DNA of 36,743 bases from an uncultured Alphaproteobacteria bacterium. GTDB lineage: Bacteria; Pseudomonadota; Alphaproteobacteria; Rs-D84. Under the pieces are notes generated by a model. It ran no database searches. It saw only the letters and a list, made by a program, of their open reading frames with translations, and had not been told where the DNA came from. Shown here piece by piece: positions 11,141 to 29,700 of this stretch. Each line of letters begins with the position of its first letter. The first letter of the stretch is position 1. The stretch is from NCBI GenBank assembly GCA_944389185.1, contig CALXLL010000001.1, forward strand, positions 157,014 to 193,756, given 5' to 3'. The position numbers and the translations under genes are program-made.

Positions 11141-11169
11141 TTTGGTTTTTTTACTTGTTGTGATAAAAT
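11141..11169 (+). promoter_or_regulatory. Possible promoter for the cysteine-rich tandem pair
   Basis: TTTGGT (11141-11146), 17 nt, TAAAAT (11164-11169), in the 120-nt gap after the rplQ terminator. The -35 box is poor. A promoter is needed here because a strong terminator precedes the gene. Confidence 0.3.
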
Positions 11170-11193
11170 TATTAAAATGATAGGAAGGCCTTG

Positions 11194-13974
11194 ATGAAAA
11201 AAATATTAGTTTTACCATTGATTATTATGGGGGTTGTATCTGTTGCAGATGCGGCAGTGTCGTCACAAAGAGAAGTTTCTCAGACAACCGTGACACGCGG
11301 AACAAATACAGCGGCAAACATGCGCAGCACAACAACGGCTGCTAGAAGTGCTACGACTGTTGCAAGAGCGGCCACGCCAGCTGCAACAACAACAAGAAGT
11401 GCCACAACAGGCAGGACAACAGTTGCAAGATCTTCTGCAACAACGTCTGCCGATACACCCACAGTTTCTGCACGTGCGGCAACTACGAAAGGCGTCATTG
11501 GAACGGGAACAAAGATTGCTACAGCTGCGAAAAACGTTATCGTAAGTGAAGAATGTCAGCAAAAGTATGAAGGTTGTATGGATGCTTTTTGTATGATTGA
11601 TAATGATAGCGGTGGAAGATGTATTTGCAGCGATAGAAATGCAGAGTTGGATGAAGTTTTGGCTCAAATAGAATTGTTAGATCAGCAAAGCTATCAGATG
11701 GCGACTTATGGTGTTGAAAGAATCGAAATGGGGGCGGATGCAGATCAGGTTTTAGCAAATGCAAATGCTGTTGCTAATTCTATTTTAAACGAGGTTGAAG
11801 AAGAAGATAAAAAAACTATCGATTTGTCTTTATGGAATACCCCTATAACTTTTGAAGACGAAGATATTTTTGCTTCTGAAGATATCTTTGCTAATTCTGT
11901 TGAAGGTAAGGAAGGCGATGCATTATATAGCGCTGCCGATTCTATATGTGCTGCCCAGATACCAGAATGTAGTGCCGAGATTTCAATGTTGCAATTAATG
12001 TATAGTCAGAAAATCAAATCTGATTGCACAGCTTATGAAAATAGTTTAAAGCAACAGAAAAACGCAAGTGCAAATAAGTTGGCGGTTGCTGAAAAGGCTT
12101 TACGTGACGCTGCGCTGGAGCAATTTAGAACCGCAAATAAATATGATTTAGGTCAATGCACTTTGCAATTTAAAAACTGTATGATGACAACAGGCGGTTG
12201 CGGTGAAGACTTCTCTGGTTGTGCAACAATATCTGCTTTTGATAATACAAACAGTGCACAGTCAGATAAAGATGTCGCAACTTATACAATAAGCGGTAGT
12301 GCAACAAGTATAGAAATATATGCTTCAACTTATGATGCTTTGTTGTCTAAAAAGCCTTTGTGCGATAATATCACAAATAGCTGCGTGGCAGTGAAAGATC
12401 AGGTGTGGGATACTTTCTTGAAAGAAGTCGCACCGCAAATCAAAAGCGCAGAATTAATAGCCGAAGACAACGTAAGACAGAATTGTGTAAGTTCTATATC
12501 TGAATGTTTTCAAAACGCTTGTAAAGAAACGATGGACCCTAATGACCCAGACGGTTCTTACGATTTGTGTTTGACGCGTCCTGAATCTATGCTTAATTTA
12601 TGTAAGATTCCGTTAAACGCTTGCGGAATTGATTCAAGCAGTGAAGAAGCGGCTATGGAATCTTCTATATGGGACTATGTAGTTGCAAGACTTGCTTCAA
12701 TGCGAGTTGACTCTTGCACAACGCAGGTTAAAGAATGCTTACAATCAGAAGATAGATGCGGTTCCGATTATAGTCAGTGTATTGGATTGGATACAGAAAG
12801 TATTCTTGAATTATGCCCAATTGAAAAATTGACGGGGTGCGTAATTGAATATGGTGAAGAAGAATTACAATCTGAAGAAAGCAGTGCATATGCTCAGCTA
12901 GAAGTTCTGATTCAAGGTATTATACTTAATATAGATAACAGCATGTTAACGCAATGTCAGCAGGCTTTGGATACTGCGATGATAAGCGTTTGCGGTGATA
13001 CGGAAAATTGCGATTCATTGGTTTTAGATGAAGGACTGGGGGGCGGTTCTTTGGAATATAAGTTATGCGAATACGATTCAAGCGCAAAAATTAATTATAA
13101 TAATTGCAGAACTAATATTTCTCAGATATCAGATTCTGAACTGGGGCGTATTTCTGGTGGAACAGAAAACGGTTTGGGGGCTATTACTAACTTTGCCGGT
13201 GTGATAGACGGAATTATACCTTGGGAAACTGTTTCGTTTGACGATGACGGTAATCTGCAGTTAACGAATACGAAAAACGATGATTTAGAAGTTGTTTCTT
13301 TGGCAACAGAATCAAATCTTTCTACTGCAAAAGACTATATTTCTAAAGCAGCGCAAACATTGCAGCTTAGCACAGAAAAACAGGACCAGGTTGTATCAGA
13401 GCTTGCTTTGTTGCAAAAGAATATTGCTTCTGCAATACAGACAATAGAGTCTGACCCAACAGTTCAGTTCTGTATGACAGGTCGTCAAGTTCAAGGTGTA
13501 AGAACGGTAATCGGAACAAACGTAGGCAGATTCCCAGAACTAACAAATCAAGTTCGTTTGCAAATAGCTATTTCTGCATTGAATAAGGCAAGAAAAAATT
13601 ATAATGACAGATATGAAGAACTGGTGGAACAACAAGCTTTGGATAACGTAGAATTGGCAGAACGTATGGCAGAAATCAGGGGCGAAAACGCACTGGAAGC
13701 AAGACGTGAATCTGCTAGGATTTCTTGTCTTGGCGTCTCAGATGGTTCATCTTTATCTGATGAAGCTGCGTCTAATTCAGGCGGTGATTATGTAAGTTCA
13801 AATGTTAATGAAGATTGGAACTATAAAGAAACAGTCACTTCTACATTTAATTCTGAAACTTTAATTTGTCATAGATGTGTTAGAAGTCAAAGTTGTGCAG
13901 ATCCAAAAGGTGGAAGAAAAATGTGTAAGAAATGGAACGAACCTGTTGAAACTTGCACGGATATTCAATTCTAG
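11194..13974 (+). CDS. Large secreted cysteine-rich protein, first of a tandem pair
   Basis: No family recognised. The ATG at 11194 (926 aa) is preferred over a TTG one codon earlier because AGGAAGG is then properly spaced. Signal peptide MKKILVLPLIIMGVVSVADA, then about 85 residues rich in Thr/Ala/Ser/Arg. The mature part has about 38 cysteines in clusters: ECQQKYEGCMDAFC (near residue 119), CMMTTGGCGEDFSGC, CLQSEDRCGSDYSQC, and a four-Cys group starting CHRC before the end CTDIQF. Helical stretches such as NSLKQQKN lie between. The following gene is a paralogue throughout. Export and extensive disulfides are likely; the function is unknown. Confidence 0.9.
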   Translation: MKKILVLPLIIMGVVSVADAAVSSQREVSQTTVTRGTNTAANMRSTTTAARSATTVARAATPAATTTRSATTGRTTVARSSATTSADTPTVSARAATTKGVIGTGTKIATAAKNVIVSEECQQKYEGCMDAFCMIDNDSGGRCICSDRNAELDEVLAQIELLDQQSYQMATYGVERIEMGADADQVLANANAVANSILNEVEEEDKKTIDLSLWNTPITFEDEDIFASEDIFANSVEGKEGDALYSAADSICAAQIPECSAEISMLQLMYSQKIKSDCTAYENSLKQQKNASANKLAVAEKALRDAALEQFRTANKYDLGQCTLQFKNCMMTTGGCGEDFSGCATISAFDNTNSAQSDKDVATYTISGSATSIEIYASTYDALLSKKPLCDNITNSCVAVKDQVWDTFLKEVAPQIKSAELIAEDNVRQNCVSSISECFQNACKETMDPNDPDGSYDLCLTRPESMLNLCKIPLNACGIDSSSEEAAMESSIWDYVVARLASMRVDSCTTQVKECLQSEDRCGSDYSQCIGLDTESILELCPIEKLTGCVIEYGEEELQSEESSAYAQLEVLIQGIILNIDNSMLTQCQQALDTAMISVCGDTENCDSLVLDEGLGGGSLEYKLCEYDSSAKINYNNCRTNISQISDSELGRISGGTENGLGAITNFAGVIDGIIPWETVSFDDDGNLQLTNTKNDDLEVVSLATESNLSTAKDYISKAAQTLQLSTEKQDQVVSELALLQKNIASAIQTIESDPTVQFCMTGRQVQGVRTVIGTNVGRFPELTNQVRLQIAISALNKARKNYNDRYEELVEQQALDNVELAERMAEIRGENALEARRESARISCLGVSDGSSLSDEAASNSGGDYVSSNVNEDWNYKETVTSTFNSETLICHRCVRSQSCADPKGGRKMCKKWNEPVETCTDIQF

Positions 13975-13986
13975 TGATTGAAAGTT

Positions 13987-16900
13987 ATGAAAAAATGCCT
14001 CGCAATTTTTATATCTTTGATAACTCTGAGCTTTTACAATCCTGTTGTAGGAGCTCAGGTTTCTTCAAATAGAGTTGCCAGAGGTCAAACTAATTCCAGT
14101 ATATCTAATGATACAGAAACAGCTTCTGTTTCGGCACGTAGTGCGACTGCTGTCAGGTCCGCTGTTGTGCCTTCCGCAGCTTCCAGAACATCGGCTTCGG
14201 GTAGAACAACGGTAACTCGTTCTTCCGGAACGTCTGTTAATTCTTCGCCAACTGTTACTGCCAGGGCTGCCACAACCAGCAGCGTAATAGGAACAGGAAC
14301 AAAAGTAGCAACTGCAACGCAGAACGTCGTAATTTCGCCCGAGTGTCAACAGAAATATGAAGGTTGTATGGATGCTTTCTGTATGCTGGATAACGTTAAC
14401 GGTGGAAGATGTCTTTGCAGTTCTTCTTACGAAGATTTAGAAGCCCAGCTTGCAGAAATAGAAGAAATGAATCTTCAAAGCTATCAACTGTCTACTTTGG
14501 GGGTGGAAGTGATTGAATCTTCAAATGCTTCTTTGTTGGGGACAGACGAATATAATGGCGTAGATTTAAGTCTGTGGAATCAACCGGCTGTTCAAATAGA
14601 ACCGGAAGAAGGTGATGAGCCAATTGGATTGGCTTTATATGCAGAATCTGATGCAATATGCCAAGAAAGAATACCAGAATGTGCAAATCAAATTGATATG
14701 TTGCAACTTATATATAGCCAGAAAATCAAATCAGATTGCGTTGCTTATGAAAATAGCTTAAAACAACAGAAAAACGAAAGCACCACAAAATTGGCCGAAG
14801 CACAAAAGGCGCTTAGAGATGCTGCCTTAAACCAATTTCAAACTTCAAATAAATATGACTTGGGACAATGCATTTCAGAATTCAAAAATTGTATGATGAC
14901 AACAGCTGGCTGCGGTGAAGATTTTTCCGGTTGTGCCACAACTGCAGCTTTTCATAATACGAATCCTGTAAACGAAGAAGATGTCACTGTTATACCTATG
15001 CATTCTATAATTGGAAGCTCGTCCAGTATAGATATATATGCTTCTACTTATGATGTTTTGCTGGCTAAAAAGCCTATGTGTGACAGCGTTACGAATAACT
15101 GCGTGGCTGTTAAAGACCAAGTTTGGGACGCTTTCCTTCGTGAATCTGCACCGCAATTAAAAAATGCGGAACTGATAGCTGAAGATAATATCAGACAAAC
15201 TTGCGTATCAGATATTTCAGATTGCTTTCAAAAAGCTTGTAAAGATAATATAGATCCAAATGATCCGGACGGTTCTTATGATATGTGCTTAACGCGTCCT
15301 GAGTCTATGTTAAGTTTTTGTAAGTCAGAATTGAATTCTTGTGGTATTGATACTTCAAGCGATAAAACTGCAAAAGAATCTGAAATATGGGATTATGTTG
15401 TCGCAAAACTTGCTTCTATGAGAGTAGATTCTTGCACTGCAGAATTAAAGGCTTGTTTGCAATCGGAAGATAGGTGCGGTTCCGATTACAGCCAATGCGT
15501 GGGTTTAGATACAGAAAGTATAATTCAGCTTTGTCCTTACGATAAATTGACCGGTTGTAAAATTGTGTATGGAGAAAAAAATATCAAAGGAAATGACGTT
15601 TATGACGAAGTTTATAGGCTGGTGCAGGGTATAATGCTGAATATTGATAACAGCATGATAGCGCAATGTCAGCAAGCCGTTGACGAAGCTATGTTGAAAG
15701 TGTGTGGCAGCACAGATAATTGTGATAATCTGATTCTGGACGAAGGTTTAGGGGCGCGTTCACTGGATTATAATATTTGTGAATATTCATTAACTGATGG
15801 TACTTTTGATATAGATTATTCCACTTGTGTTTCAGATGTAGAAAATGTTCCTGATGAAAAGTTGGGAAGAATACCAGGTGGTGCAATTGACGCGCTGGGA
15901 CCTGTAGCACCTTTGGTTGGCGTTTTAGACGGAACTATATATTGGGAGTCTGTGGATATTGATAGTGACGGGCAATTAATGACTGCTGAAGAGTATTTTG
16001 CAAAAGTCGGTGACGAAGGCGTTAAAGATTTTCAGAAGGAAAGAATAAGCGATGAAATAAACTTGCTGCAAAGAAATATTAACAGTGCGATATCAATGAT
16101 AGAATCTGACCCGACGGTTCAATATTGTATGACAGGAAGAAAGGTTCAAGGTGTAAAATTAGAGCTGGGAACAGATGAAGGGCGCTTTCCGCAGTTGACA
16201 AGAAGTGCCAGATTGCAAATAGCAAATTCTGCTTTAAGTAAAGCCAGAAAAAATTATGCAGATAAATATGAAGAATATAACGAAAAAATGTCGCAAGATT
16301 ATGCCAGAATGGCAGAGCGCCTATCAGAAATCCGAGATGAAAACTCTAAGGACGCAAGAAGAGAAACGGCAAGAATTGCTTGTGTAAGTTTGGCGGACCT
16401 TGGTGCATTGCCCAAATCCCCGACTCCGAAAAGTCAGATAGGTAAATATATTACAATAGCAGTAGTAGTAGCAACTGCAGTCGTTGTGACTGTGTTTACT
16501 GCGGGTGCTGGAACAATTGCAATGGGTGCAGGAATTGCTGCTGGTGTTGAAGCTGGTGGTAGCACTGTTGCTGCCGCGGCAGGTGCTGCGGCTGGAATTG
16601 GGGCTGCCGGTGGCGCTGCCGGCGCAATAGCGGGATCGGTATTTGGTGCGGGGGGGGCAATAGCAGGATCCGCAGCAGGCACTGCTGCCGCGGCATCGTT
16701 GGCTACAAGTGCGACAACTGCAATTGCTACGGGTGTTGTGGGCGGTGCACTGGGAATTGCCGGAACGGCCGCTGAATTAAGTGTTACGGGAAACGCTTCT
16801 AATGATGCAAGCTCGCAAAGTTATTTATCCGGATATCATAAAACAGATCAATGGAACTTCCGCGAAACTATTACTACGGAATTTGACTTGGATTCTTTGG

Positions 16901-17022
16901 TCTGCAAAAAGTGTGTCGTGACTCAGCAGTGCAAAAAAACAAAAACTCCTTTGTTCGGCGATTTGTATTGCGACGAGTGGGAAGAACCTTCACCAGAAAC
17001 TTGCACTGATATTCAATTTTAA
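13987..17022 (+). CDS. Large secreted cysteine-rich protein with a glycine-zipper domain, second of a tandem pair
   Basis: Paralogue of the preceding gene, 1011 aa from the ATG at 13987; a TTG at 13978 is also possible and no clear ribosome site is seen, so it may be translationally coupled to the gene ending 12 nt earlier. Signal peptide MKKCLAIFISLITLSFYNP to about VVGA, then a Ser/Thr/Ala/Arg linker. By my count the 38 mature cysteines match the first protein one for one. Near residues 820-930 it has a long Ala/Gly hydrophobic insert (for example AAGIGAAGGAAGAIAG) with membrane-like glycine-zipper spacing, which the first protein lacks. It ends in the same CTDIQF. Function unknown. Confidence 0.9.
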   Translation: MKKCLAIFISLITLSFYNPVVGAQVSSNRVARGQTNSSISNDTETASVSARSATAVRSAVVPSAASRTSASGRTTVTRSSGTSVNSSPTVTARAATTSSVIGTGTKVATATQNVVISPECQQKYEGCMDAFCMLDNVNGGRCLCSSSYEDLEAQLAEIEEMNLQSYQLSTLGVEVIESSNASLLGTDEYNGVDLSLWNQPAVQIEPEEGDEPIGLALYAESDAICQERIPECANQIDMLQLIYSQKIKSDCVAYENSLKQQKNESTTKLAEAQKALRDAALNQFQTSNKYDLGQCISEFKNCMMTTAGCGEDFSGCATTAAFHNTNPVNEEDVTVIPMHSIIGSSSSIDIYASTYDVLLAKKPMCDSVTNNCVAVKDQVWDAFLRESAPQLKNAELIAEDNIRQTCVSDISDCFQKACKDNIDPNDPDGSYDMCLTRPESMLSFCKSELNSCGIDTSSDKTAKESEIWDYVVAKLASMRVDSCTAELKACLQSEDRCGSDYSQCVGLDTESIIQLCPYDKLTGCKIVYGEKNIKGNDVYDEVYRLVQGIMLNIDNSMIAQCQQAVDEAMLKVCGSTDNCDNLILDEGLGARSLDYNICEYSLTDGTFDIDYSTCVSDVENVPDEKLGRIPGGAIDALGPVAPLVGVLDGTIYWESVDIDSDGQLMTAEEYFAKVGDEGVKDFQKERISDEINLLQRNINSAISMIESDPTVQYCMTGRKVQGVKLELGTDEGRFPQLTRSARLQIANSALSKARKNYADKYEEYNEKMSQDYARMAERLSEIRDENSKDARRETARIACVSLADLGALPKSPTPKSQIGKYITIAVVVATAVVVTVFTAGAGTIAMGAGIAAGVEAGGSTVAAAAGAAAGIGAAGGAAGAIAGSVFGAGGAIAGSAAGTAAAASLATSATTAIATGVVGGALGIAGTAAELSVTGNASNDASSQSYLSGYHKTDQWNFRETITTEFDLDSLVCKKCVVTQQCKKTKTPLFGDLYCDEWEEPSPETCTDIQF

Positions 17023-17029
17023 TTTTCCT

Positions 17030-17057
17030 TTGACAAGCTATTTGTTATATATATAAT
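17030..17057 (+). promoter_or_regulatory. Consensus promoter with almost no leader
   Basis: TTGACA (17030-17035), 16 nt, TATAAT (17052-17057): both boxes perfect. The expected start near 17064 is only a few bases before the ATG codons at 17068 and 17074, and no ribosome site fits between. Predicts a leaderless or near-leaderless mRNA. Confidence 0.75.
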
Positions 17058-17067
17058 AGCTTCCGCT

Positions 17068-17778
17068 ATGTTTATGAAAAGTAAATATTCTTTAAATAAA
17101 GAAACCGCGGCAGAGCTTTTTAATAAAAACTCGCCGGCTTACGTTATATCCAATGAAGATTTACGACTGGTAATGAATACAGTTAAACCAAACGGTAAAG
17201 ATGTATTAACTGTCGCAGGCAGTGGTGATCAACCTTTGTTCTTTCAGCTTGCCGGTGCAAAAATTATAGATACTTTCGATATCTCGATTAATTCTAAACG
17301 TATGATGAATGTAAAAGTAGCCGCAATAAAGTCTTTGAATTATGACGATTACTATGACGTTATGAAAAGTATAGCTGGGGGAAGCGCAGATTTCCCGGTT
17401 AAAAAAACTTATTTGTCTTCTTACTATATGCCATTAAAATCAGAATATATGGCGCTGAAAGAAAAAGTTAATAAACCTTATAATTTTATTCAGTCTGATT
17501 TGTATTCTTTATATAAAAATCTTAATAAAAAATACGATATATTTTATTTCTCTAATATCATTCAATATGATTTTGAGGCAAAAAAAATTATCGGTTTGTT
17601 GAATAATTTAAGACCTTTTATGAATAATAATGCTTTGATTGTATTATATGTTGCTCCGTATTTTATAATGGAAGAAATCGAAGGTTTTAGAAAAATTCAA
17701 AGCTATGTTAAAAAATGGGCCGGCGTTAATTTTGTTAGAAATTCGTCTCAGATGACTTGTGTGGTTAAGTCATTATAA
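17068..17778 (+). CDS. Probable SAM-binding transferase, DUF3419/BtaA-like fold
   Basis: Protein of 236 aa (or 234 from the ATG at 17074). DVLTVAGSGDQPLFFQLAGA (residues 45-64) is a Rossmann SAM-binding loop, and IDTFDISINSKRMMNVKVAA resembles the next strand of DUF3419 proteins, the family of BtaA, which makes betaine lipid headgroups. BtaA itself is much longer, so the substrate is uncertain; many short relatives are unassigned. No signal peptide, so cytoplasmic. Has a perfect promoter, is probably leaderless, and converges with the next gene, stop codon against stop codon. Confidence 0.6.
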   Translation: MFMKSKYSLNKETAAELFNKNSPAYVISNEDLRLVMNTVKPNGKDVLTVAGSGDQPLFFQLAGAKIIDTFDISINSKRMMNVKVAAIKSLNYDDYYDVMKSIAGGSADFPVKKTYLSSYYMPLKSEYMALKEKVNKPYNFIQSDLYSLYKNLNKKYDIFYFSNIIQYDFEAKKIIGLLNNLRPFMNNNALIVLYVAPYFIMEEIEGFRKIQSYVKKWAGVNFVRNSSQMTCVVKSL

Positions 17779-18711
17779 GTCTTCAAGCTTATTTATAACT
17801 TTTATCCCGACAGATTGCCATTCAGAGATTTTTGATTCCAAGTCTTGAATGTTGTCTTGATATAAGTAAATAATCGGCTGTTTATGCGTGATGTCTTTAA
17901 GCGTTAAGAGCTTTTTAATAGGTGATGCTTTTTGTTTGCCGGCTGCAAACCAAAAATCTGGATCGGCAATCCAAAAAGAAGAATCACTGTGAACAGCAAT
18001 AACAGAATCTTTCGTTTCTATAATATCTTCTGAAATTGTTGCGTCTGGATACTTTGCTTGAATTTGTTTTAATATTTCTTTTTCTGACATTTCATTATTT
18101 TGTTTTGTGGGCTCTGCATCAAAGTTTAAATCTGTAAATACAGGTATTTGTTCTTTTTGTTCATCGTCTTCATCAGATAAAGAAAAATCAAAATTATCAG
18201 GAATCGGTATTTCTGGTTCTTGTTGTGTCGTTGCCTGTGGCTGTTTTTCGCTTGATTGGGAACTAGAAAATTGTTCTGTAATCGTGGGAAAATATTTTTC
18301 TCTGGCTCGTAATCTTATAAACGCATTTACCAATTCCGTCGGAAGATTTTCTGGAAGATTATCATCTGGTGCAGGTTCAAGTTCTTTTTTTGCTTCTTCT
18401 TTGACTTCTTCTTTTTTTTCTTTCTTCTTTGTAGGAAACAGCTTGGGAATAGTAAATAAAGGTTTTTTTGTTCTGGCTATTATAGCTGTGGTGGCTATGT
18501 ATAAAGGCAGGGCAGCAAGTATCATTATGCCAAATGCAAAACCGGCAAAACCAACAAGTCTTGCATGTAATAAACGATGCCAGTTTTCCATAGAAAATAA
18601 ATTAAAGTTAAATAAAAAATACAAAATAAACCACACCGCAATAATATAAAAAAAAGTCCATAATATCGCGTATTTATTGCTTTTTATAAAATCTTGTATT
18701 TTTTTTATCAT
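17773..18711 (-). CDS. Two-helix inner-membrane protein of unknown function
   Basis: Unrecognised protein of 312 aa. The frame is open further upstream, but the ATG at 18711 is chosen because a perfect promoter ends 7 nt before it and an earlier start would run into the divergent gene. Two hydrophobic helices (WTFFYIIAVWFILYFLFNF and GFAFGIMILAALPLYIATTA) are followed by a Lys/Glu linker (KKKEKKEEVKEEAKKE), an acidic Gln/Ser-rich stretch and a compact C-terminal domain of about 100 aa with DSVIAVHSDSSFWIADPDFW. The C-terminal domain probably faces the cytoplasm. Its stop codon abuts that of the convergent gene. Confidence 0.75.
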   Translation of the reverse strand: MIKKIQDFIKSNKYAILWTFFYIIAVWFILYFLFNFNLFSMENWHRLLHARLVGFAGFAFGIMILAALPLYIATTAIIARTKKPLFTIPKLFPTKKKEKKEEVKEEAKKELEPAPDDNLPENLPTELVNAFIRLRAREKYFPTITEQFSSSQSSEKQPQATTQQEPEIPIPDNFDFSLSDEDDEQKEQIPVFTDLNFDAEPTKQNNEMSEKEILKQIQAKYPDATISEDIIETKDSVIAVHSDSSFWIADPDFWFAAGKQKASPIKKLLTLKDITHKQPIIYLYQDNIQDLESKISEWQSVGIKVINKLEDL

Positions 18712-18718
18712 ATAACAT

Positions 18719-18746
18719 ATTATAGACATTTCTGTATTTTTGTCAA
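18719..18746 (-). promoter_or_regulatory. Consensus promoter for the two-helix membrane protein
   Basis: Read on the minus strand: TTGACA (18746-18741), 16 nt, TATAAT (18724-18719). The -10 box ends 7 nt before the ATG at 18711, so transcription would start at or next to the A of ATG. A leaderless mRNA is predicted. Confidence 0.75.
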
Positions 18747-18838
18747 TGTTCTTTTTGAACCTTAAAAATCTTTTGTAAAAGTGCTTTTTTTTATAATGTT
18801 TTTGTGGCATAATATAAAAGATAAAAGGGAGATATTTC

Positions 18839-20911
18839 ATGCATAATTTGTTTAAATTATTCGGTATTTCGGCCATCAGTTTCGGGGCGTTGTTCTGTTG
18901 CTTTTCTGCAGAATCTGCGGAAAGTCTGGGCAGGGCGGCCTATAATGTCACTCGGTCTAATCGCACTGGGGCATTGACCGCAGCCGGTCAACGTATGCCT
19001 ACAATGCCGACTTTGTCTATAAATACCGTTGGAAATATGTCTCCTGACTTACCAACAACACCTTCAAATCCTGGCGGTGGGGACGGTGGCGATGATGATA
19101 ATCCTGATAATCCAGACAATCCAGATGAACCAACTTGCCCAGATGGTGGGGTTGAAAACTCGGATTATACAGTTGAAATGTGCATGAATGATATTCTGAC
19201 TTGTATTAATAATGGGGCTTTGTCTGGTGGATTAAATGACTTATTTAACGAAGATTTAAGAAATGCTATTGTAAACGGTATGGGGCTTTGTTCTGCTCAG
19301 GTCGAAAGATGCGTTGATGAAGTTCGCAAAGATTGCGATTATGTTTATAGCGGTTCCGCAGACGTTTGGATTGACTTTAACGCAAGAATTATCCAACCAG
19401 AATATTATAATTTCGTTTTACGTAAAACGGGTTTAACACCAAACCAAGCGGAAAATACTTGCTTGTTATTAGATAGAAATACTTACGGTTCTTCTTTCAA
19501 TGCCGTTTCTAATACCGGGGCGGTCACATCAGAATATAATCAAACCGTCGGTGCTTATAATAACCAAAACGGTAATGTGTTGGTTAAAAATCAACCGCAA
19601 GGCGTAAACGTAAATCAAGGTAATCTTGGGGTTGACGGTCAGCGTGGACATTATGCAAGATGGGATGCAACGACCGCCGAATGCTTAATCAGAGTCGCCG
19701 CTTATAATAAAGACGATCAAATAACGAATAGTTGGTTGTTCGGTGCGGCTGGTAACGACCAACCTGCAGAAGTATGGAAAGCGGCAGGTGACACATTCAC
19801 TTGCAACAGAGATTTATTCGGTTTTTCTCTTATGAATCAGACTAACACAGCAGCTGTCGTTGGGGTAGGTGGCGGTGCTTTACTTGGTGCTGGTGTCGGG
19901 GCTTTGGCCGGTCATGGTGATAGAGCGTTCGATTGTAATAATAAAAATCAGCTGAAAAAATTATCTGAAGATTTGAATAAGTCCGGTAATATCGCGATTA
20001 TAAACGAATATATGACTAATCAAATTCCTATGAACGGTGGGGATTTAACGCTTGCTCAGTGTCAAGAACTTGTAGAATTATATAATGTTTATAATCAAAT
20101 AATCACGGCTTTGGAAAAGTGCCCAGATACAAATCCTAATGTTTCCGTATCTAGCAGCTATTTATCAGAAGAATATACAATTAGCTGTGATGGTTATGAT
20201 ATTTTAGATGATTGTTTCGCTGCTAATGATGAAACTAAAGCTTGTGTAGGGAAGGGGTTTGAATACCCTCAAGACTGTGCAGATTTTCTTAGCAGTTATG
20301 AATCAGATACTTCTGTAACGTCAAGTTATGATAATAATTGCTTGTTTAAGCCGATTAATAACGCAAAAATTACAGGGAATAGTATTTATTGTATAGAACA
20401 GGGGGGAACTTGCATAGGTGCCAAAGACATGCGTCAAGAAATCAACAGAATGAAAACTGTCTTTGATAATCTTACGATACTTGGTGGTGAAGATTCTAAT
20501 ATGGGTAAGGCAATCGGTATCGGTGTCGGTGTAGGTGCTGGTGCCGGTGGATTGGCAACTGCTATTACGGCTTTTGTAGAAAGTAGCAATATTAATTGCC
20601 GCGTAGGTGACGGACTGGATAAAGTGGGATACGGTAAAGCTTATTCTATCGGGTCTTTGAAAGATTTCTATGTAAAGTGGAACCTTCGCTTGCCTGATAC
20701 GGTTGCACCGACAGTCACTGTAACAGATTGCGAATCTTGGAAAAAAGCTTGTGCGACTTTAACAGATTTGAATCAATGTAAAGCTGCGCAGATAAACTAT
20801 AAACCGGCAGATGCCAAGACGGTTACACTAGTAAAATCTGCGTGCACTATATCAGGAAGCGATTGCATAGAAAATTATCCGGTTGCGAAGTCTTATGGCG
20901 CATGCGAATAG
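18839..20911 (+). CDS. Secreted cysteine-rich protein with two glycine-zipper segments
   Basis: Unrecognised 690-aa protein. AAGGGAG stands 7 nt before the ATG. Signal peptide MHNLFKLFGISAISFGALFC to about ESAES, then a Gly/Asp/Asn/Pro linker with NPDNPDNPDEP near residue 90. The middle has paired cysteines (CSAQVERCVDEVRKDCDY, resembling the QVKEC units of the tandem pair). Two Gly-rich hydrophobic stretches, VVGVGGGALLGAGVGALAG (about 340-358) and AIGIGVGVGAGAGGLATAI (about 558-576), could insert in a membrane as hairpins. The C-terminus has more Cys pairs (CESWKKAC, CTISGSDC). Transcribed divergently from the membrane protein and closed by its own terminator. Function unknown. Confidence 0.85.
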   Translation: MHNLFKLFGISAISFGALFCCFSAESAESLGRAAYNVTRSNRTGALTAAGQRMPTMPTLSINTVGNMSPDLPTTPSNPGGGDGGDDDNPDNPDNPDEPTCPDGGVENSDYTVEMCMNDILTCINNGALSGGLNDLFNEDLRNAIVNGMGLCSAQVERCVDEVRKDCDYVYSGSADVWIDFNARIIQPEYYNFVLRKTGLTPNQAENTCLLLDRNTYGSSFNAVSNTGAVTSEYNQTVGAYNNQNGNVLVKNQPQGVNVNQGNLGVDGQRGHYARWDATTAECLIRVAAYNKDDQITNSWLFGAAGNDQPAEVWKAAGDTFTCNRDLFGFSLMNQTNTAAVVGVGGGALLGAGVGALAGHGDRAFDCNNKNQLKKLSEDLNKSGNIAIINEYMTNQIPMNGGDLTLAQCQELVELYNVYNQIITALEKCPDTNPNVSVSSSYLSEEYTISCDGYDILDDCFAANDETKACVGKGFEYPQDCADFLSSYESDTSVTSSYDNNCLFKPINNAKITGNSIYCIEQGGTCIGAKDMRQEINRMKTVFDNLTILGGEDSNMGKAIGIGVGVGAGAGGLATAITAFVESSNINCRVGDGLDKVGYGKAYSIGSLKDFYVKWNLRLPDTVAPTVTVTDCESWKKACATLTDLNQCKAAQINYKPADAKTVTLVKSACTISGSDCIENYPVAKSYGACE

Positions 20912-20931
20912 TTTTGACTTGCTAAAATAAC

Positions 20932-20960
20932 AAAAAGCACTACGAAAGTAGTGCTTTTTT
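20932..20960 (+). terminator. Intrinsic terminator after the 690-aa protein
   Basis: AAAAAGCACTAC (20932-20943) and GTAGTGCTTTTT (20948-20959) form a perfect 12-bp stem with a GAAA loop and a U-run. Confidence 0.92.
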
Positions 20961-21224
20961 ATTGGACGGTATAATGTTTATTTCCGGGTATAATTCTGGC
21001 ACGTTTAAAAAAAATATCCGTATAAAAAAGAACTAGTCGTGTAATTAAAGTCCTAAATATAATTATTTGCTTCACGATATTAATATCACGTAGCGATAAA
21101 TATGTTGATTAATATTATTATTGTTGTTTTACGTTTTAGATAGGCTTTTATATTAAATAAGCGAAAGTTATATGTATATAATTTACATATAAAAATGTAT
21201 CTGTTGAATATGTCCCTGTAAGCA
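20961..21224. other. Gene-free stretch with two symmetric sites
   Basis: No credible reading frame or known RNA is seen. It lies between two terminators, so it is probably little transcribed. It holds the palindrome GATATTAATATC (21076-21087) and the inverted repeat TTATATGTA/TACATATAA (21168-21176 with 21184-21192), whose loop contains TATAAT (21177-21182) but no matching -35 box. Two other TATAAT words (20970-20975 and 20989-20994) also lack a -35 box. Confidence 0.5.
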
Positions 21225-21259
21225 AAAATAAAGGCGTAACAAACTGTCGCCTTTATTTT
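21225..21259 (-). terminator. Terminator of the three-gene minus-strand operon
   Basis: AAAATAAAGGCG (21225-21236) pairs with CGCCTTTATTTT (21248-21259) around an 11-nt loop. On the minus strand it directly follows the operon's last stop codon and ends in a U-rich tract. The symmetry lets it work in both directions. Confidence 0.8.
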
Positions 21260-21286
21260 ATAATGTTTTATATAGAATTAATTTAT

Positions 21287-23074
21287 TTACATTTGTTGAT
21301 TTACAGCGTTTGTATTTTCTTGTTCGGTATTATTTTGAGCGTCTTTCGGATTATTTATAATCAAGTTACCCACAATACTGCCACCTGCACCAACGCCAGC
21401 TGTTATAGCACCTGCTGTTAGATTTGACTTTGTTTTTTCTGCTTGTTCTGATAATTGTGCAGCGTCTTCACCGCTGGTATTAGTTAAAGCACGATATACA
21501 GAAGCATAAGTGCCGTTTGTAATACCGATTGATGTGTCGTCATATAAACCAGAAGTGGCTTTATCCATAACGACTTCTGATTCTATACCAGGTGACATAT
21601 TAAGTGCTTCTTTACGTTGTTTTAAGTCAGCGGCAAGTTGTTGATATTCTGTATACAAAGGAAGTAATATGTTTGCGCCTGGCAAGGTGATATTTGCATC
21701 ACCACCTTTTGCTTGATAAGAACCATATGTGCAGCGGAAAGTGGCGATATATCCGGACATATCAAGTTCAGCTGCTGCATCAGCACTTTGTTCTGCCAAA
21801 GCGGAAGTCGCCATCATACCACCGATACCGGTTGCGCCGATACCGGCCCCGCCAAGTAATGTATTAGCAATTGATTGTTCGTTTGCTTTTGCTTCGTCTG
21901 CTTTTGCTTGTAATTCAGCAATTTCTTCTTCCGTTGCAGGTTCTACGTCTGAAACTTCGCTTTCTACACATTTACCTTTGCTTACTTCATAGCCTTCTTC
22001 ACATTTTGTAGCTTTACATTTACCGTTTTTTAGCTGACCTTCAGTTGCTTTAAATATTTGTGATAATTGTTCGGATGTGCAAGCGCCTTCCGATTGTTCG
22101 CAGCCGTTTTCATAATCGTTTGGCAGAAAACCGTCAGCACATTTTTTTACTACGCATTTTAATTCTTTGTCTTGTATTTGGTATATTGCACGAACTACAT
22201 TACTTTTGTTTTCTAAAGTGTTAATACAATCTTTGTTTTTTAAATCTTCGCAGGCGCCTGTTTCTTCATTATATTTATAGCGTGGTTCTTCACAAACAAT
22301 ATTTTCGCATTTTTTATTTTTTAGTTCATAACCTTTTTCACAAGCAGTTGGTATACAAATACCTTTTTGTAATTCACCGGCAGAAGCATTAGGGTCTACT
22401 TGTTTTACTGTATCTGTGCAATCACCTTCACTTTTGATACAAGTCGTTTTATCTTCATTTGCTATATAGCCTTTTTCACAGGTTTGTATTTCACATTTAC
22501 CGTTGTTACCATAGGTTGCTTTAGTTGCTTGTGGAACTTGGGCTTTAACGGTGCTTAAACAGTCGTCGCCTTTATTACTGACGCATTTGTTTGTTGACGG
22601 GTTTACTTTTAAGCCTTGATTTGGATCGCAAATAATTTGGCATTTTGTATTTGGTGCTGCGCCTATTAATTCGTAACCTTTATCGCATTCTATTGGATAA
22701 CATTTGTCTGTTTTTTCATCGTATTTTGTTTGTTTGTTTGGAAAATTATTTTTACATGATGTAATTACCGCTTCATCTAGCATATCTTTATCTAAATCTA
22801 GATCAATAGTCATATTTTCTGTTGGATTTGAAATAGTCTTATCTTCATAACCAATTAAAGTTACTGTTATAGGTTTGTTGTCAGGAACGGTGAGCGAGAA
22901 ATTACCTTTATTATCTGTTTCGCCACCATAAGGAGTGTTCCCTTCATAATAAACTATAGACGCATATGGAACAGTTTCGCCTGTTTCGGAGTCAATAACT
23001 GTTCCTGACACTGTTTTTGCGAGTGTCGGTAAAGATAATAAAATTAAACAAAATCCTAATAATATTTTTTTCAT
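21287..23074 (-). CDS. Secreted protein with a CarboxypepD_reg-like domain and four cysteine repeats
   Basis: Protein of 595 aa. Signal peptide MKKILLGFCLILLSLPTLA. Residues 21-95 resemble the carboxypeptidase-regulatory-like beta-sandwich common in Bacteroidota surface proteins: VSGTVIDSETGETVPYASI, GGETDNKGNFSLTVPD and VTLIGYEDKTI. Residues 171-371 hold four tandem units of about 50 aa ending in CE.GY and KC (CEKGYIANEDKTTC, CEKGYELKNKKC, CADGFLPNDYENGC, CEEGYEVSKGKC). A glycine zipper (LLGGAGIGATGIGGMMATSA, 407-426) and a second one near the C-terminus follow. Last gene of a three-gene operon. Surface or periplasmic; role unknown. Confidence 0.85.
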   Translation of the reverse strand: MKKILLGFCLILLSLPTLAKTVSGTVIDSETGETVPYASIVYYEGNTPYGGETDNKGNFSLTVPDNKPITVTLIGYEDKTISNPTENMTIDLDLDKDMLDEAVITSCKNNFPNKQTKYDEKTDKCYPIECDKGYELIGAAPNTKCQIICDPNQGLKVNPSTNKCVSNKGDDCLSTVKAQVPQATKATYGNNGKCEIQTCEKGYIANEDKTTCIKSEGDCTDTVKQVDPNASAGELQKGICIPTACEKGYELKNKKCENIVCEEPRYKYNEETGACEDLKNKDCINTLENKSNVVRAIYQIQDKELKCVVKKCADGFLPNDYENGCEQSEGACTSEQLSQIFKATEGQLKNGKCKATKCEEGYEVSKGKCVESEVSDVEPATEEEIAELQAKADEAKANEQSIANTLLGGAGIGATGIGGMMATSALAEQSADAAAELDMSGYIATFRCTYGSYQAKGGDANITLPGANILLPLYTEYQQLAADLKQRKEALNMSPGIESEVVMDKATSGLYDDTSIGITNGTYASVYRALTNTSGEDAAQLSEQAEKTKSNLTAGAITAGVGAGGSIVGNLIINNPKDAQNNTEQENTNAVNQQM

Positions 23075-23094
23075 TTCTTTTACTTTTTGCGGTT

Positions 23095-25026
23095 TTAGTT
23101 ATACATCAATTCATATAGTTGTTTTAGGTCGTTGTTTAAACAGCTGGGGTGATATGAAAGACATTGTTTCCTTGTATAGCCCTTGTGACACTCAATCACA
23201 CCATAGGAATTACAAAATATCGCTTCGGTGTTACTTAACGGGGTATTTATATACTCGTCCCATGTTATATTTTGTTTCGTTGTTGTATTTGATAAAGCTT
23301 TTTTTGCAGCAGCTTGTTCTTTTTCTATCATTTCGTTTGTTTTCTGTATTGCTTCTTCTAGTTCCGTTTTTTTAGAGGTATTTGTAGCAGAAGTTAATTT
23401 ATCTCTTGATATGGTATCCCTTGAAGCTTGAGAAGTAGTTACAGTTGCTTTTATGTTGTTTGTGGTTTGTATTTTTTGTATTTTATCACTTGATTCTTGG
23501 GCAGAACTTGTGTCTGAAATATTTGTAGATAGATCAGAGTTTTCCTTTATTGAGTTATTAACATCATTTATTGTTGAATCCATTACTTCTGAATCAAGTT
23601 GTTCCTTTAATGCTGCCATGTCTGGTTCTTCTGATGTTGTTTCAGTTGCATTTCCATCTGATGATGCTGTTTCTGTTGGGGCAGCTTCATTATTCGAAGC
23701 ATCTTCTGAAGCTTCGGCAGTAGGTTGTGGTAATTCTTGTGCGCGGCTTGCTTCCGCTTCTTCCAAAGCTTTTTCCGCTTTTTGTGTTTCTATCGCACGA
23801 CTTATCGCACCAGAAGTTATCGCACCAATACCAAGACCAAGACCTGAACCCAATACGGATGAAGTCGCAGACGTTTCTGAACGTGTAAGCCTATACGCAT
23901 TTTCCATAAATGTCGTTACGTCAATGCCAAACCAATTAGGATTACAATCAAAGTCAGAACCTGCATAGACCTTCTTTGACGCATAAGGTGATGAAGAATT
24001 ACCTGCGTAAAAGTTTACCGTATATACGCAGTCCAGAGTTCTTTCATCAAACATTGCACCTAACATAGCGCACTGATTACGCATTAAATCTCTTAATTCG
24101 TAAAGTCTTTCTTCGTCTTTCTGTATCTGTTTTTCCGCGTCTTGACGAAGTGTAGCAAATACTTCCATTGCTCTGGATGCCAGACCGCTGTCTTGCTGTT
24201 TGCACTCTTGTGCAATAGAGTCACATTTTGATATCGCTGCATCACCAGCTGATTTACCTAAGCAATTATTAAAGTTCTGACCGCATTGCGTCACTATACA
24301 ATTATTATATCTGTTACCACAGTTTATAACCGCAGTATATGCCGCCAGTTCTGCGTTTATATCCCTGTCTGCTTTTATTTCCGCAGAAAATGCAGTGAAC
24401 TCTTCGGTCGTGCAATTTGACCTTATGCGACAAGATTCCATCTTGTCACCCCATAAAGTATCACTGTTATTTGCACAATTAGAAAAGTCGTTTCCGCATT
24501 TTTCCTGCATACATTTACGTAATTCTGTATCACAAGCGTTTTGACCGGCACTTATTGCGGCTTGCGTCTTTGCCGTTGCCGCAGATACTGCATCAGCCGC
24601 ATCCAGTGCAGCCCTTTGCTGACGTATCATTTCAGCCAGCTGATTATCAGAACTGCTTAAACTGCCAGAGCTAACAGAAGAATCAAGTATGCTTTCAAAT
24701 TGTGACGATTTATCTTCTATTTGTAATTCTTCAATATTTGTATCTTGGTATATAACTTCTTCAGAATTATCAGGCTTGCTGGCCGATTCTGTAACGGGTT
24801 CGGTTTCCTGTGCTGATTCGGTTGTTACAGGCGTCCTGGATGCAACATTGTTCGTTCTTGCAACTGTCGGACGAGAAGCCGTTGTCCCACGTGATACAAC
24901 AGACGCACCATGCGCAGCATTTGAATAAATCCCCAAGACGATTATCAAAGAAAACAATATGCCCCTGGATAGCTTGTTTTTGCTTGTTCGTTTTGTTTGA
25001 TAAAATAGTCTTTTTTTGTTCGTCAT
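23095..25026 (-). CDS. Secreted cysteine-rich, coiled-coil-rich protein
   Basis: Unrecognised 643-aa protein. A long basic N-terminus (MTNKKRLFYQTKRTSKNK) precedes the hydrophobic core GILFSLIIVLGIYSNAAHGA, a likely signal peptide. A linker with SRGTTASRPTVARTNN recalls those of the tandem pair. Cysteine motifs CMQEKCGNDFSNC and CIVTQCGQNFNNC link it to the same family. A glycine-zipper segment (VLGSGLGLGIGAITSGAISR, about residue 392) is followed by a long acidic Ser/Thr/Glu/Lys region, probably helical, and a small terminal Cys cluster. Starts 7 nt after the upstream gene, so probably translationally coupled. Confidence 0.85.
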   Translation of the reverse strand: MTNKKRLFYQTKRTSKNKLSRGILFSLIIVLGIYSNAAHGASVVSRGTTASRPTVARTNNVASRTPVTTESAQETEPVTESASKPDNSEEVIYQDTNIEELQIEDKSSQFESILDSSVSSGSLSSSDNQLAEMIRQQRAALDAADAVSAATAKTQAAISAGQNACDTELRKCMQEKCGNDFSNCANNSDTLWGDKMESCRIRSNCTTEEFTAFSAEIKADRDINAELAAYTAVINCGNRYNNCIVTQCGQNFNNCLGKSAGDAAISKCDSIAQECKQQDSGLASRAMEVFATLRQDAEKQIQKDEERLYELRDLMRNQCAMLGAMFDERTLDCVYTVNFYAGNSSSPYASKKVYAGSDFDCNPNWFGIDVTTFMENAYRLTRSETSATSSVLGSGLGLGIGAITSGAISRAIETQKAEKALEEAEASRAQELPQPTAEASEDASNNEAAPTETASSDGNATETTSEEPDMAALKEQLDSEVMDSTINDVNNSIKENSDLSTNISDTSSAQESSDKIQKIQTTNNIKATVTTSQASRDTISRDKLTSATNTSKKTELEEAIQKTNEMIEKEQAAAKKALSNTTTKQNITWDEYINTPLSNTEAIFCNSYGVIECHKGYTRKQCLSYHPSCLNNDLKQLYELMYN

Positions 25027-25033
25027 TTTTATA

Positions 25034-25900
25034 TTACTCTATCAGCTGGCATGCTGTTTTATAAAATCTGCATAATGTTTCTGCCATTACCCTTTCCGAT
25101 TCGTAATCCGAATCGCATTTGTTTTTCATGTGTTGCGCACAGACCGTCTGAACACAAGCGTTAAAACCCGCGTCGTTAGTGCAACTTGATTCTGCAGATG
25201 ATAATTTCTGTGCACGTGCGTTTTGATATGCTTTCGCAACATTGTCTATAAGAGTTTGGGCGTTCACAATCGCATTGTCACGGCTGGAACGTAAGTCCGT
25301 TCTGATGTCTGATAAATATTCGTCACAACCTGTCGCTTCGACACTGCAAGAAGCAAAAAAACTGTTAAAGCTTGCATCTTCTTTACAACCACTGAAATTG
25401 GCCCCGCATTTGTTGTCCGCAACCAAGCAAGATTGTATCTGGTCAGAACAGCTGGTTTTACTTACCGTTTGCTTTAAGTTAGCGCTTAAACTTGTCATTT
25501 CTGCGGTTATACCTGCAGCTTTGCAAGATTGTTCTATTAAAGAGTCATACACTTCTGATACGTCGTTTGCTGTGCATCCGCTTATTTTTTTTATGCACTC
25601 TGCCGTTGCCCAAGCATACCTTTGACCAGGATCTGATGGTGCACTTTTAAGTTCTTTTTCTGATAATATATATTTAGACGATACGCCCAAGGAAACACTG
25701 CGCATTGCACTGGAAGAAGGACTGCCCGCACTTGCAGTTCCGCAATATTGGCACCTGGCCGCAGGATTAGACGAAATGTTTATAGCGCAAGCGGAATCCA
25801 AGCATTGGGTTAGATTTATGCGCGAACAAGTCGCCGCCATAGAAGAGTAGGGCGCTGTTAATAATACACATAGGCAAAAAAATAAAAAAGGATGCTTCAT
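25034..25900 (-). CDS. Small secreted cysteine-rich protein, first gene of the operon
   Basis: Unrecognised 288-aa protein. Signal peptide MKHPFLFFCLCVLLTAPYSS to about MAA. The mature part opens with a Cys cluster (CSRINLTQCLDSAC, then CQYC) and later has CLVADNKCGANFSGC, the island's CGx[DN][FY]xxC core, plus CNxC-like pairs near the end. No glycine zipper, so it may be the soluble partner of the two zipper proteins encoded after it. AAGAGAG precedes the ATG, and a promoter lies 16 nt upstream. Confidence 0.85.
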   Translation of the reverse strand: MKHPFLFFCLCVLLTAPYSSMAATCSRINLTQCLDSACAINISSNPAARCQYCGTASAGSPSSSAMRSVSLGVSSKYILSEKELKSAPSDPGQRYAWATAECIKKISGCTANDVSEVYDSLIEQSCKAAGITAEMTSLSANLKQTVSKTSCSDQIQSCLVADNKCGANFSGCKEDASFNSFFASCSVEATGCDEYLSDIRTDLRSSRDNAIVNAQTLIDNVAKAYQNARAQKLSSAESSCTNDAGFNACVQTVCAQHMKNKCDSDYESERVMAETLCRFYKTACQLIE

Positions 25901-26023: not shown

Positions 26024-26683
26024 ATGGCAATTACAAAAAGAACTTTTGTTAATTTAGGTAATGTTGCTTTGGGGGGGATTATAGTTGCTTGCGTTTTTTT
26101 GGGGATTAATAAATGCTCGTCCGATAAAGACAAAGTTTTGGAAACTGCACAAAAAGATGAAATAGTTAATAATAAAGGAACTATCGTTATAGTAAATGGT
26201 GATAGCGTTAACGTTAAAGTAGGCAATAAAGTTGATAATAATTCTGAAACGACTATTACTTTCCAAAAAGCAGCTGATTCTTTGAAGAAAGAAACAGCTA
26301 AGCCCGTCAACGAGAAGAAAGAAAATGTTCCTGTTAAATCTAATAAACCAGCTGTCAAAGATTCTAAGATAGTTACAGCAGATCCTGTTTCTTCTACAAA
26401 GATAAATATCAAAGAAGATTCTAAAAATAGTGGACATATAATTGTTGCGCCTAAAGAGGCAGGAAATACCGAAATTAATATAGAAGGTAATTCTTCTAAT
26501 AGCGGCACGATTTTTGTGGGTGATGTAGTTTTAAATCTTGTAATTTCTCCGGCTGCAAAGGACACGTTGGAAAATAAAAAAGTCGTTGATACTGTATTCG
26601 TAGAAAAGGCTAAGCAAGAATGGCAAAAACAAACTGCCGTTGTAAAAAAAATAAAAGAGAAAAAAGTTATCAGATATTATTAA
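26024..26683 (+). CDS. Membrane-anchored low-complexity protein of unknown function
   Basis: Protein of 219 aa with one N-terminal hydrophobic helix (VALGGIIVACVFLGI) after a short basic start, then about 180 polar residues rich in Lys, Asn, Val and Thr. Two stretches look alike: NNKGTIVIVNGDSVNVKVG, and SGHIIVAPKEAGNTEINIEG followed by NSGTIFVGDVVLNLV, suggesting short beta-strand repeats. The end is strongly basic (KKIKEKKVIRYY). It has its own consensus promoter and terminator, so it is a single-gene transcript. Probably periplasmic and anchored in the inner membrane. No family recognised. Confidence 0.75.
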   Translation: MAITKRTFVNLGNVALGGIIVACVFLGINKCSSDKDKVLETAQKDEIVNNKGTIVIVNGDSVNVKVGNKVDNNSETTITFQKAADSLKKETAKPVNEKKENVPVKSNKPAVKDSKIVTADPVSSTKINIKEDSKNSGHIIVAPKEAGNTEINIEGNSSNSGTIFVGDVVLNLVISPAAKDTLENKKVVDTVFVEKAKQEWQKQTAVVKKIKEKKVIRYY

Positions 26684-26686: not shown

Positions 26687-26715
26687 AAAGTCCGTCAAAA
26701 TGACGGACTTTTTTT
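26687..26715 (+). terminator. Intrinsic terminator of the 219-aa gene
   Basis: AAAGTCCGTCA (26687-26697) and TGACGGACTTT (26701-26711) pair perfectly around AAA and run into T7. An in-frame ATG for the next gene at 26700 lies inside this hairpin and is therefore not its start. Confidence 0.92.
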
Positions 26716-26768
26716 GTAGACAGATAATTCATTTCTGTGTTAAACTAATTAATACAGAGAGAGTTATC

Positions 26769-29700
26769 ATGAAATATATCAAAGCTTTATTATTTGCTAT
26801 TTTCTTTGTTCCAACGGCAGTATTTGGGGCTTCTACAACTGGTTCAAGTGATTTTATGCTGGCGGCTCAGTTATTGGCAGCTGCTAAAAATGCTGATATT
26901 CAGCAAGTTCAAGCTTTGGTTAATAACGGTGCAGATATCAATTTTGTTGACAGCACAGGACTTTCTATTGTTTGCACTGCTTTAATGAATAATGATGTCA
27001 GGGCAGCTCAGATTTTGCAGATGTATGGCGCAGACGCTTCTAATTGCGACAGGCAAATAAAGCAATATGAAAGTAAAAACTCTACGGAAAGTAGCGGGGG
27101 GCTTTTTAGTGGGCTGTCGTCCGCCCAGAATATTTCTTTGGCGGCGGCTGGGGCCGCCGTAGTTGTAGGTGGACTTTTCTTATTAACAGATGTTTTAGAC
27201 CCTGGCAATAATAATGTAGGTGGTGGGACGTCTTCTGACGGAACAAGACCTGGTGGTGACGGCAGTGGGGGAGGAACTGGAAATGCTACGGCAGCTTTCA
27301 CTATTCCTTATGGACCGGCTATGCCAAATGCTGAGTCTGAAACGGCAAACTACGTTTCTAATCTTAATTTATATAGTCCTTCTACTACGGGCGTCACCCA
27401 AAGTAATTTTGATTTAATGACTGATACTTATGGACAAAACTATTTGTTGATGATGCATGGGTATTCACCATTGGCACGCGGTTATATGGGAATGAGAACT
27501 TTAAGAAATAGTCAAACTTATGCACCTATAAGTTTATCTGGTAATAATCTTGGAACTGACCCTGTTATGGGGGGAAGACCCGTTAATGTGGCTTTGGTAA
27601 CGGCAAACGGCGTTAATTCTTCACCAAAACCTGCCGGTGCGCTGACCGCAGAAAATAATTCTTTGGACGATGAAATCTTGCTTTGGACAACGCTTAATAA
27701 TAACGGGACTTCGTCTAATGGGGCAAGCAATGAAATGATTTCTAGCAAGTATTATAATAACAAGATTATTACAGGAACTGATACCGCCACTGTAACAGAT
27801 GATTCCACAATAGAAGATTCAAGTCTGCTTTCAACTTTTGATTTGTCGGGTTTCGGAACGGCTATTAATAATGTAAATGCTTCTAGCACTGATAATTTGA
27901 TAGCTAAGATTGTTGGTGGGGCAAATTCTGGTTTTTCAACGGCTGATTTTATAGGGTTTATGCCAAACGGTCAGATGACTATTTTCAGAACAGGGGGTGG
28001 CAGCGGTATGGTTGCGCTGGAAACACCAACTAATTCTGGCACTTATACTATGGCGGGGGCCAGCCTGGCGGCTAATGATACCTTGACTATATCAGGAAAG
28101 ACTTTAACAATAACCAAAGTTGAATCCAACGTTATAACTGCAACCGATGAATCTGATAATGTTTATAACGGATACATCGGAACAGATGGTTTGCTTTATA
28201 TTTCAAGCACTTCTGGTGGTGAAATAAACACGGCTTATAATTTAACCGGTGGTAATTTAATGCTGACTAAGCAACTTGAAGATATAGATTATTATAATTA
28301 TCAGGCTTTATTAAATGCAGGTAATCTTTGGGCGGCGGGTGATGCCGTTAGTGGTGGCAGATCAAGACCCGATGTTATTGCTAATGCTTCTGTAATCGCA
28401 CCATTGCAATCTGCAAGCTCTGCTACTATTGGTGATGTATTGTCATTAAACGGGCAAACTTTGCAAGCTGCTGCATTTATAAACTATGTTAATCAATATT
28501 ATGATGTTAATAAAACCGACGGAACAGACGGTGCGGACGCTCTTCCTGGAACTGCGGCTTATTCGTTCTTTAATATGTTGGGTTCTGCTTTTTCGCCATT
28601 AACAATATTTGCAACTGGATCCGCCCAAACGGGAACTAATTGGATTGGTAAAAATCTGGAGGCAAGCTTTGAAAACTCGGCACCGTTGGTATTTAATAAC
28701 TTAGAACATCTATTTATGTCTGTCGTTCCTGTCGGTTTGGCAGGTGGAACAACTGGAACCGATAATGTAAGCGGTTTTAGCCCAAAAGGAAAATATCAAG
28801 TATCTCAGTGGTCAAATAATAATGGAACGCCAGATAATGCAAGCGATGATATATTTTATAAAGGGCGAGTGTGCGGAATTGCGGGTTCTGGTGCAAATGG
28901 AATTGACCCTTGGTGCTTTGCGGCTGCTGGTATGACAGATGAATTAGCCGTAGCTAGTGCTGCAGGTGCGGCTGGCGTTATTCAAGGGGCTTTTTATAAG
29001 ACTTCGGACGGTCGCGGATTAAGTAGTAAAGAGTTATTTTCATTGTTGGCGTTAACTGCTGATGGTGCTTATTTAGCAACTGATTCTGCAGGTAAAGCTT
29101 TTACTGAAGACGGTTTAATTTCTTATCTGCAAGGTATGTATCAGATGCCATACGAGTATGAATATCGTTGGAAAGAAGGTGGTGAAAATTATCTGGACGT
29201 ATTCAAAGAAGTTTTCGGTTATGGTTTAATAAATCTAGAAAGAGCAACTACACCGGGAACAAGTATATATTATTATAATGGTTCAAATATAGTTTCGGGC
29301 GACGGTAATGCTTATTGGCGTGCTGCAACAAATACTACATTTCGTTCTTCTTCGGCGTTCAGTCCAAGTGCCGCAACTATCAGCGCACCGTTTTACGATT
29401 TGCTAGAAAGCATTGACGGCGAACTTAGTATGCCTAGAATATGGCAAAATGAATTTGCTTTGGGAACGCAAACTAAGCGCGGGCTTTATATGGGGGATGT
29501 TCTTGGTGATTTACATACTACGAAAGTCAAACCGGCAGAAACACAATTTGGTAATTTAACTATGTCTATGGCTATATCGGAAAGACAATATGATGATTAT
29601 CTTTCTGGGTTAGACTCTTTACAATTTGATTATGAATCAGGTAAGTGGAGCTTTGGGGCAGGTTATCAACACCACTTCACAGATGGTCAGTCAAGATTCT

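Follow-up and report, generated by a model that had tools for sequence, protein, structure and literature searches.

The DNA analyzed here, referred to as the window, is a 36,743-nucleotide stretch of a 796-kb, 97% complete genome from Candidatus Enterousia, a member of the alphaproteobacterial GTDB order Rs-D84 with a reduced gut genome. The initial annotation had placed six large ORFs of 926, 1011, 690, 595, 643 and 288 aa side by side in this region, and all six are confirmed with these sizes and positions. We refer to them as P1, P2, P5, P6, P7 and P8. The conserved block runs past position 25900, up to the autotransporter-like ORF at 26700-30488, and contains the following features:

11191..13974, forward strand: P1, exported cysteine-rich protein, 926 aa from the ATG at 11194 or 927 aa from the TTG at 11191; founder of the P1 family, helical, with 38 cysteines and no zipper.
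13978..17022, forward strand: P2, 1011 aa from the ATG at 13987 or 1014 aa from the TTG at 13978; tandem P1 paralogue with a Gly/Ala-rich hydrophobic insertion.
16432..16791, forward strand: glycine-zipper segment of P2, residues 819-938, with 26 glycines.
17068..17778, forward strand: DUF3419-like (methyltransferase-type) ORF amid the cysteine-rich genes, seen again near P1-type genes at some loci.
17773..18876, reverse strand: P4, 367 aa, with two predicted membrane segments; a recurrent neighbor of P5.
18839..20911, forward strand: P5, 690 aa, exported and cysteine-rich, with two glycine zippers; present in every genus genome searched.
19841..19918, forward strand: P5 zipper 1, residues 335-360.
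20501..20587, forward strand: P5 zipper 2, residues 555-583.
21287..23074, reverse strand: P6, 595 aa, with a CarboxypepD_reg domain, cysteine repeats and zippers; the OmpA C-terminus of most relatives is missing here.
21350..21427, reverse strand: P6 zipper 2, residues 550-575.
21794..21871, reverse strand: P6 zipper 1, residues 402-427.
23095..25026, reverse strand: P7, 643 aa, exported, with two Cx6C-x4-Cx6C units, a conserved CxV...FxC..FG module and then a zipper.
23791..23874, reverse strand: P7 zipper, residues 385-412.
25034..25900, reverse strand: P8, 288 aa, exported, with 20 conserved cysteines; leads the P8-P7-P6 run.
26024..26683, forward strand: 219-aa protein with an N-terminal hydrophobic segment, divergent from P8; most relatives have an ORF of similar size at this place.
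26700..30488, forward strand: 1262-aa ankyrin-repeat protein whose C-terminal region resembles an autotransporter barrel; beside P8 in 68/71 loci.

As the initial annotation had read from the letters, all six proteins begin with an N-terminal hydrophobic signal segment and are rich in clustered cysteines, with 19-39 apiece. Cysteine makes up 3-7.6% of their residues, as compared to a median of 0.9% over 155 proteins of the same genome. The spacing of these cysteines departs from that of shuffled sequences: Cx6C pairs occur 11 times in P1 (1.5 expected, and none of 2000 shuffles as high), 11 times in P2 (1.4 expected), six times in P7 (0.6 expected), six times in P8 (1.2 expected, p 0.0015) and five times in P5 (1.0 expected, p 0.004). 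P6 has no excess of Cx6C and is instead enriched in Cx4C, so that one cysteine grammar holds for five of the proteins and another for P6. An alignment of 17 members of the P1 family contains 24 invariant columns, most of which are cysteines. A second short signature, 'RMPT[MI]', follows the signal peptide in 29/36 P5 and 37/83 P7 sequences and is not found in P1 or P8.

Hydrophobic, GxxxG-rich segments are present in P2, P5, P6 and P7, exactly the four proteins to which glycine zippers had been assigned, and P1 and P8 have none. The further division into zipper proteins and zipper-free soluble partners fails as a rule, as P1 and P2 are tandem paralogues with 55-57% identity that differ in just this feature, and zippers have been gained and lost between paralogues.

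The claim that the proteins belong to no recognized family stands for P1, P2, P5, P7 and P8, which have no meaningful Pfam or NCBIfam match, and has to be given up for P6. Residues 20-108 of the latter match PF13715 (CarbopepD_reg_2) at E 1.4e-11, with a score of 44.7 bits where the curated threshold is 32.2, and TIGR04056, the N-terminal stretch of SusC/RagA proteins, at 2.5e-14. P6 resembles the SusC/RagA-type proteins of Bacteroidota in its N-terminal CarboxypepD_reg domain but lacks their TonB-dependent barrel, in place of which cysteine repeats and zippers come next. Among 59 P6-family proteins, 44 carry the CarbopepD_reg_2 domain and 41 end in an OmpA peptidoglycan-binding domain (PF00691). 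The window copy of P6 lacks the OmpA domain, and none of the three downstream frames on its strand shows a remnant of it. Pfam matches within the P1 and P7 alignments are scattered and either weak or of low complexity, apart from one P1-family protein that matches Gly-zipper_OmpA (E 3.6e-5). The island resembles the OmpA family and the Gly-zipper_OmpA/YMGG/Omp families in the OmpA domain of P6 relatives and in this single P1-family member; the cysteine-rich parts belong to none of these families. A phage origin was rejected, as a search of PHROGs gave no match to any of the six.

Profile comparisons show that several of the proteins are related to each other. An hhalign comparison of P1 with P7 gives a probability of 95.1% (E 3e-8), followed by P7 with P8 at 79.9% and P1 with P8 at 68.6%, and the unit that links the three profiles is Cx6C-x4-6-CGx[DN][FY]xxC. 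Judged by their profiles, P1, P2, P7 and P8 are a single superfamily with a common, presumably helical Cx6C unit. The match between P5 and P7 is weak, with 15% for the module before the zipper and none for the N-terminal part. A post-zipper module common to P5 and P6, suspected from motifs, received no support from profile comparison.

Structural searches return no reliable relatives. A model of P1 (residues 100-927) was obtained with moderate confidence (pLDDT 75, pTM 0.52). It is mainly built of long helices; beta structure occurs around residues 622-691 and at the C-terminus. A Foldseek search of the PDB with this model returns nothing reliable, the best match being a designed protein (E 0.032, probability 0.30, TM 0.10). 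Searches with the P1, P5 and P7 sequence profiles give no meaningful relative among solved structures. PDB matches to P7, such as huntingtin and chains like it, were set aside; they fall beyond profile position 384, within or close to the low-complexity tail. The predicted structure of P5 was poor (pLDDT 57, pTM 0.37) and was not used.

Genes of the island co-occur across relatives, and P7 and P8 stay adjacent. The relatives retrieved with P8 are Candidatus Enterousia and other gut Alphaproteobacteria, for which the GTDB order is Rs-D84 (PMC12306168). P5, P7 and P8 are present in 24/24 genus genomes searched. P7 directly follows P8 in 77/80 loci, usually with genes that overlap or nearly touch, and the remaining three P8 loci lack P7 immediately downstream. 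P6 lies no more than three genes downstream of P8 in 59/65 loci, and the ankyrin/autotransporter-like ORF no more than three genes upstream of it in 68/71. In most full-length loci the next genes are either P5-P4-P1/P2 or a second P1-type cluster encoding proteins of 730, 834 and 812 aa. The host genome contains at least seven P1-type genes, counted as distinct genes (raw match counts include split matches), which together encode about 6,200 aa and take up some 2.3% of the genome. Of 190 genomes drawn from the class as a sample, three match the P1-family profile, and all three are Enterousia. The 1262-aa ORF encodes an exported protein with N-terminal ankyrin repeats; we take its passenger to look like that of a subtilisin-type autotransporter, and there is no conserved catalytic serine in it.

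Outside the genus, family f5 of Rs-D84 has an uninterrupted run of such genes, of which three are P1-type, one is P8-like and one is P7-like. The run lies downstream of the ribosomal alpha operon, with an integrase-type recombinase gene ahead of it. The ribosomal setting of the window, noted in the initial annotation, is seen again in f5; within the genus it is unstable, since rpoA/L17 is within range at only 3/80 P8 loci. In families f2, f3, f4 and f6 the cysteine-rich versions are shorter or divergent, several with the CxV...C...FG module and hydrophobic segments. Comparison of the f4 partner proteins with P5 gave no support for homology. In the P1-family tree, whose long branches leave the deeper forks unsure, the 730-aa paralogue groups with an f5 protein (support 100/99), and at least the 730-aa line is therefore older than the separation of these families. 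In one relative the P1 and P2 sequences cluster by genome, a pattern that points to recent duplication or conversion.

The island most probably encodes an envelope protein system specific to this lineage. Its protein families are new as a set, and in kind it is like known cysteine-rich envelope proteins. Among the closest of these is the chlamydial cysteine-rich outer membrane complex (OmcA/OmcB with DsbA/DsbB), which shares with it exported cysteine-rich proteins, a host-dependent, reduced-genome Gram-negative bearer and a DsbA-like enzyme (PMC6752827). The two have no common sequence family in Pfam and NCBIfam scans, and the Rs-D84 proteins differ in being larger, helical, multiplied and furnished with glycine zippers. 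A second likeness is to the twin CX9C (CHCH) hairpins of CHCHD4 substrates, which likewise pair two helices through cysteines at fixed spacing (PMC12114033). Here the spacing differs, being Cx6C...Cx6C with putative disulfides; the units sit inside exported bacterial proteins of 300-1000 aa, and no Pfam CHCH match is found.

A candidate for disulfide formation, a DsbA-like Thioredoxin_4 protein, is encoded in 19/21 genomes. The copy that was read has a CPYC motif and N-terminal membrane segments (locus L053, contig G000:C4, 16921-17742) and lies 6 kb from a second P1-type cluster. DsbB and VKOR were each found in 0/21 genomes, a further difference from the chlamydial complex, which has DsbB (PMC6752827). 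Cysteine-rich exports and a DsbA-like enzyme in cells with no respiratory chain and no detectable DsbB or VKOR present a puzzle.

The envelope location of the system is well founded, because the OmpA domain occurs in most P6-family proteins and is joined by the co-occurrence of the genes, the adjacency of P7 and P8 and the unit common to P1, P7 and P8. The envelope idea of the initial annotation is largely supported; the function in detail we infer. Our best explanation of the whole, to which we assign a probability of about 0.5, is a disulfide-stabilized surface assembly specific to Rs-D84, anchored in outer membrane and peptidoglycan and used for cell contact. Its components would all be exported by Sec, as their signal peptides indicate, and oxidized in the periplasm, as the conserved cysteines and the membrane-anchored DsbA-like protein suggest. 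P1-type proteins, P7 and P8 may then form helical, disulfide-clamped rods of repeated Cx6C...Cx6C units, the helices being those of the P1 model. The glycine zippers of P5, P6, P7 and of those P1 paralogues that have them would enter the outer membrane, and the OmpA domain found in most P6 relatives, though missing from the window copy, would tie the assembly to peptidoglycan. The P8-P7-P6 run, P5 and two slowly evolving P1 paralogues could make up a constant core, with the multiplied, faster-evolving P1/P2 paralogues varying the exposed part. On this reading the proteins would reach the surface and not be kept in the periplasm, and their likely job would be that of a rigid outer-surface structure attaching to cells that supply metabolites to these auxotrophs. 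Points that tell against it are the failure to find DsbB or VKOR in the 21 genomes, the OmpA-less P6 of the window, the three P8 loci with no P7 directly downstream and the scarcity of rpoA/L17 near P8 within the genus.

Such a role would fit the biology of the order, whose uncultured members occur widely in the guts of animals and are held to depend on other cells for their living; published work interprets them as obligate symbionts or parasites that may draw metabolites from partner cells, and their genomes encode many membrane-bound proteins lacking explanation (PMC12306168). Conserved, lineage-specific exports without known relatives are an obvious candidate for how Rs-D84 contacts cells, and with the parts now named the question becomes testable. 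In its fullest form, the proposal is of a previously undescribed, order-wide cell-contact apparatus, in which helical rods clamped by disulfides, and anchored in the membrane through zippers and in peptidoglycan, have multiplied into variable surface copies that bind partner cells and perhaps draw metabolites from them; we put this forward tentatively and hold it to be rather doubtful as a whole.

Much of the same evidence could also describe a coat that stiffens the envelope and is not adhesive, with cross-linked periplasmic or outer-membrane proteins toughening the wall much as the chlamydial complex may do. The high cysteine content at conserved positions, the peptidoglycan-binding domain of P6 relatives, the DsbA-like protein and the host-dependent lifestyle with its reduced genome all agree with a coat. 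Large, diversified paralogue sets and an autotransporter-like neighbor are, however, less expected of a uniform layer, DsbB was not found in the 21 genomes, and Rs-D84 reportedly has RodA, MreB and MrdA, genes of rod shape (PMC12306168), so that peptidoglycan is probably not replaced. We regard such a coat as unlikely to be the main role. That the proteins are unrelated surface proteins which merely sit together, with convergent cysteine richness and separate roles, is less probable still. The separate origins of the P6 domains (CarboxypepD_reg and OmpA) and the want of a confident P5-P7 match would be explained in this way, but the P1/P7/P8 profile matches, the Cx6C excess that extends to P5, the tight P8-P7 linkage and the similar sets in other Rs-D84 families all argue against it.

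The proteins might instead belong to the type IVb pilus or to the VirB-like type IV secretion system that the genome encodes, either as accessory components or as exposed ones. A T2SSE ATPase is encoded in 25/25 Rs-D84 genomes, accompanied by matches to PilO, T2SSF, secretin and TcpQ and a VirB4-type match, and because a type IV pilin gene ends a run of cysteine-rich genes in f2, this link stays a serious rival. Against it, the pilus and VirB stretches examined in Enterousia contain no match to the cysteine-rich genes, no examined locus other than that of f2 has a type IV pilin motif, no such Pfam or NCBIfam family matches P1, P2, P5, P7 or P8, and the signals of these five are Sec-like, unlike prepilin leaders. 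We give this alternative a low probability and retain the disulfide-stabilized surface assembly as the preferred reading.

Several other genes were seen along the way. Type IVb pilus genes of the R64/TCP-like kind lie at L154 (G000:C3) 6750-11402, with T2SSF, T2SSE and PilO, and at L156 (f5) 7698-14699, with the same three plus secretin and TcpQ; the published description gives type IV pili for UBA9783 only (PMC12306168). The prepilin-like gene of f2 is at L169 2379-2879 and closes a run of cysteine-rich zipper genes on the downstream side. At L158 660-3372 and L155 8168-9124 there is a gene of VirB4 type, recognized by Pfam on the overlapping stretch L154, with a small ORF like VirB3 next to it, and also a VirB11-like ATPase; from sequence, these suggest a P-type type IV secretion system in this reduced gut genome. 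Other very cysteine-rich ORFs occur at L054 15620-17917 and L164 15352-19998, with 61 and 89 cysteines, respectively. In the window itself, the ORF at 34656-35744 resembles, by eye from its sequence, the choloylglycine hydrolase family (Ntn hydrolase), and it recurs at many P8 loci.
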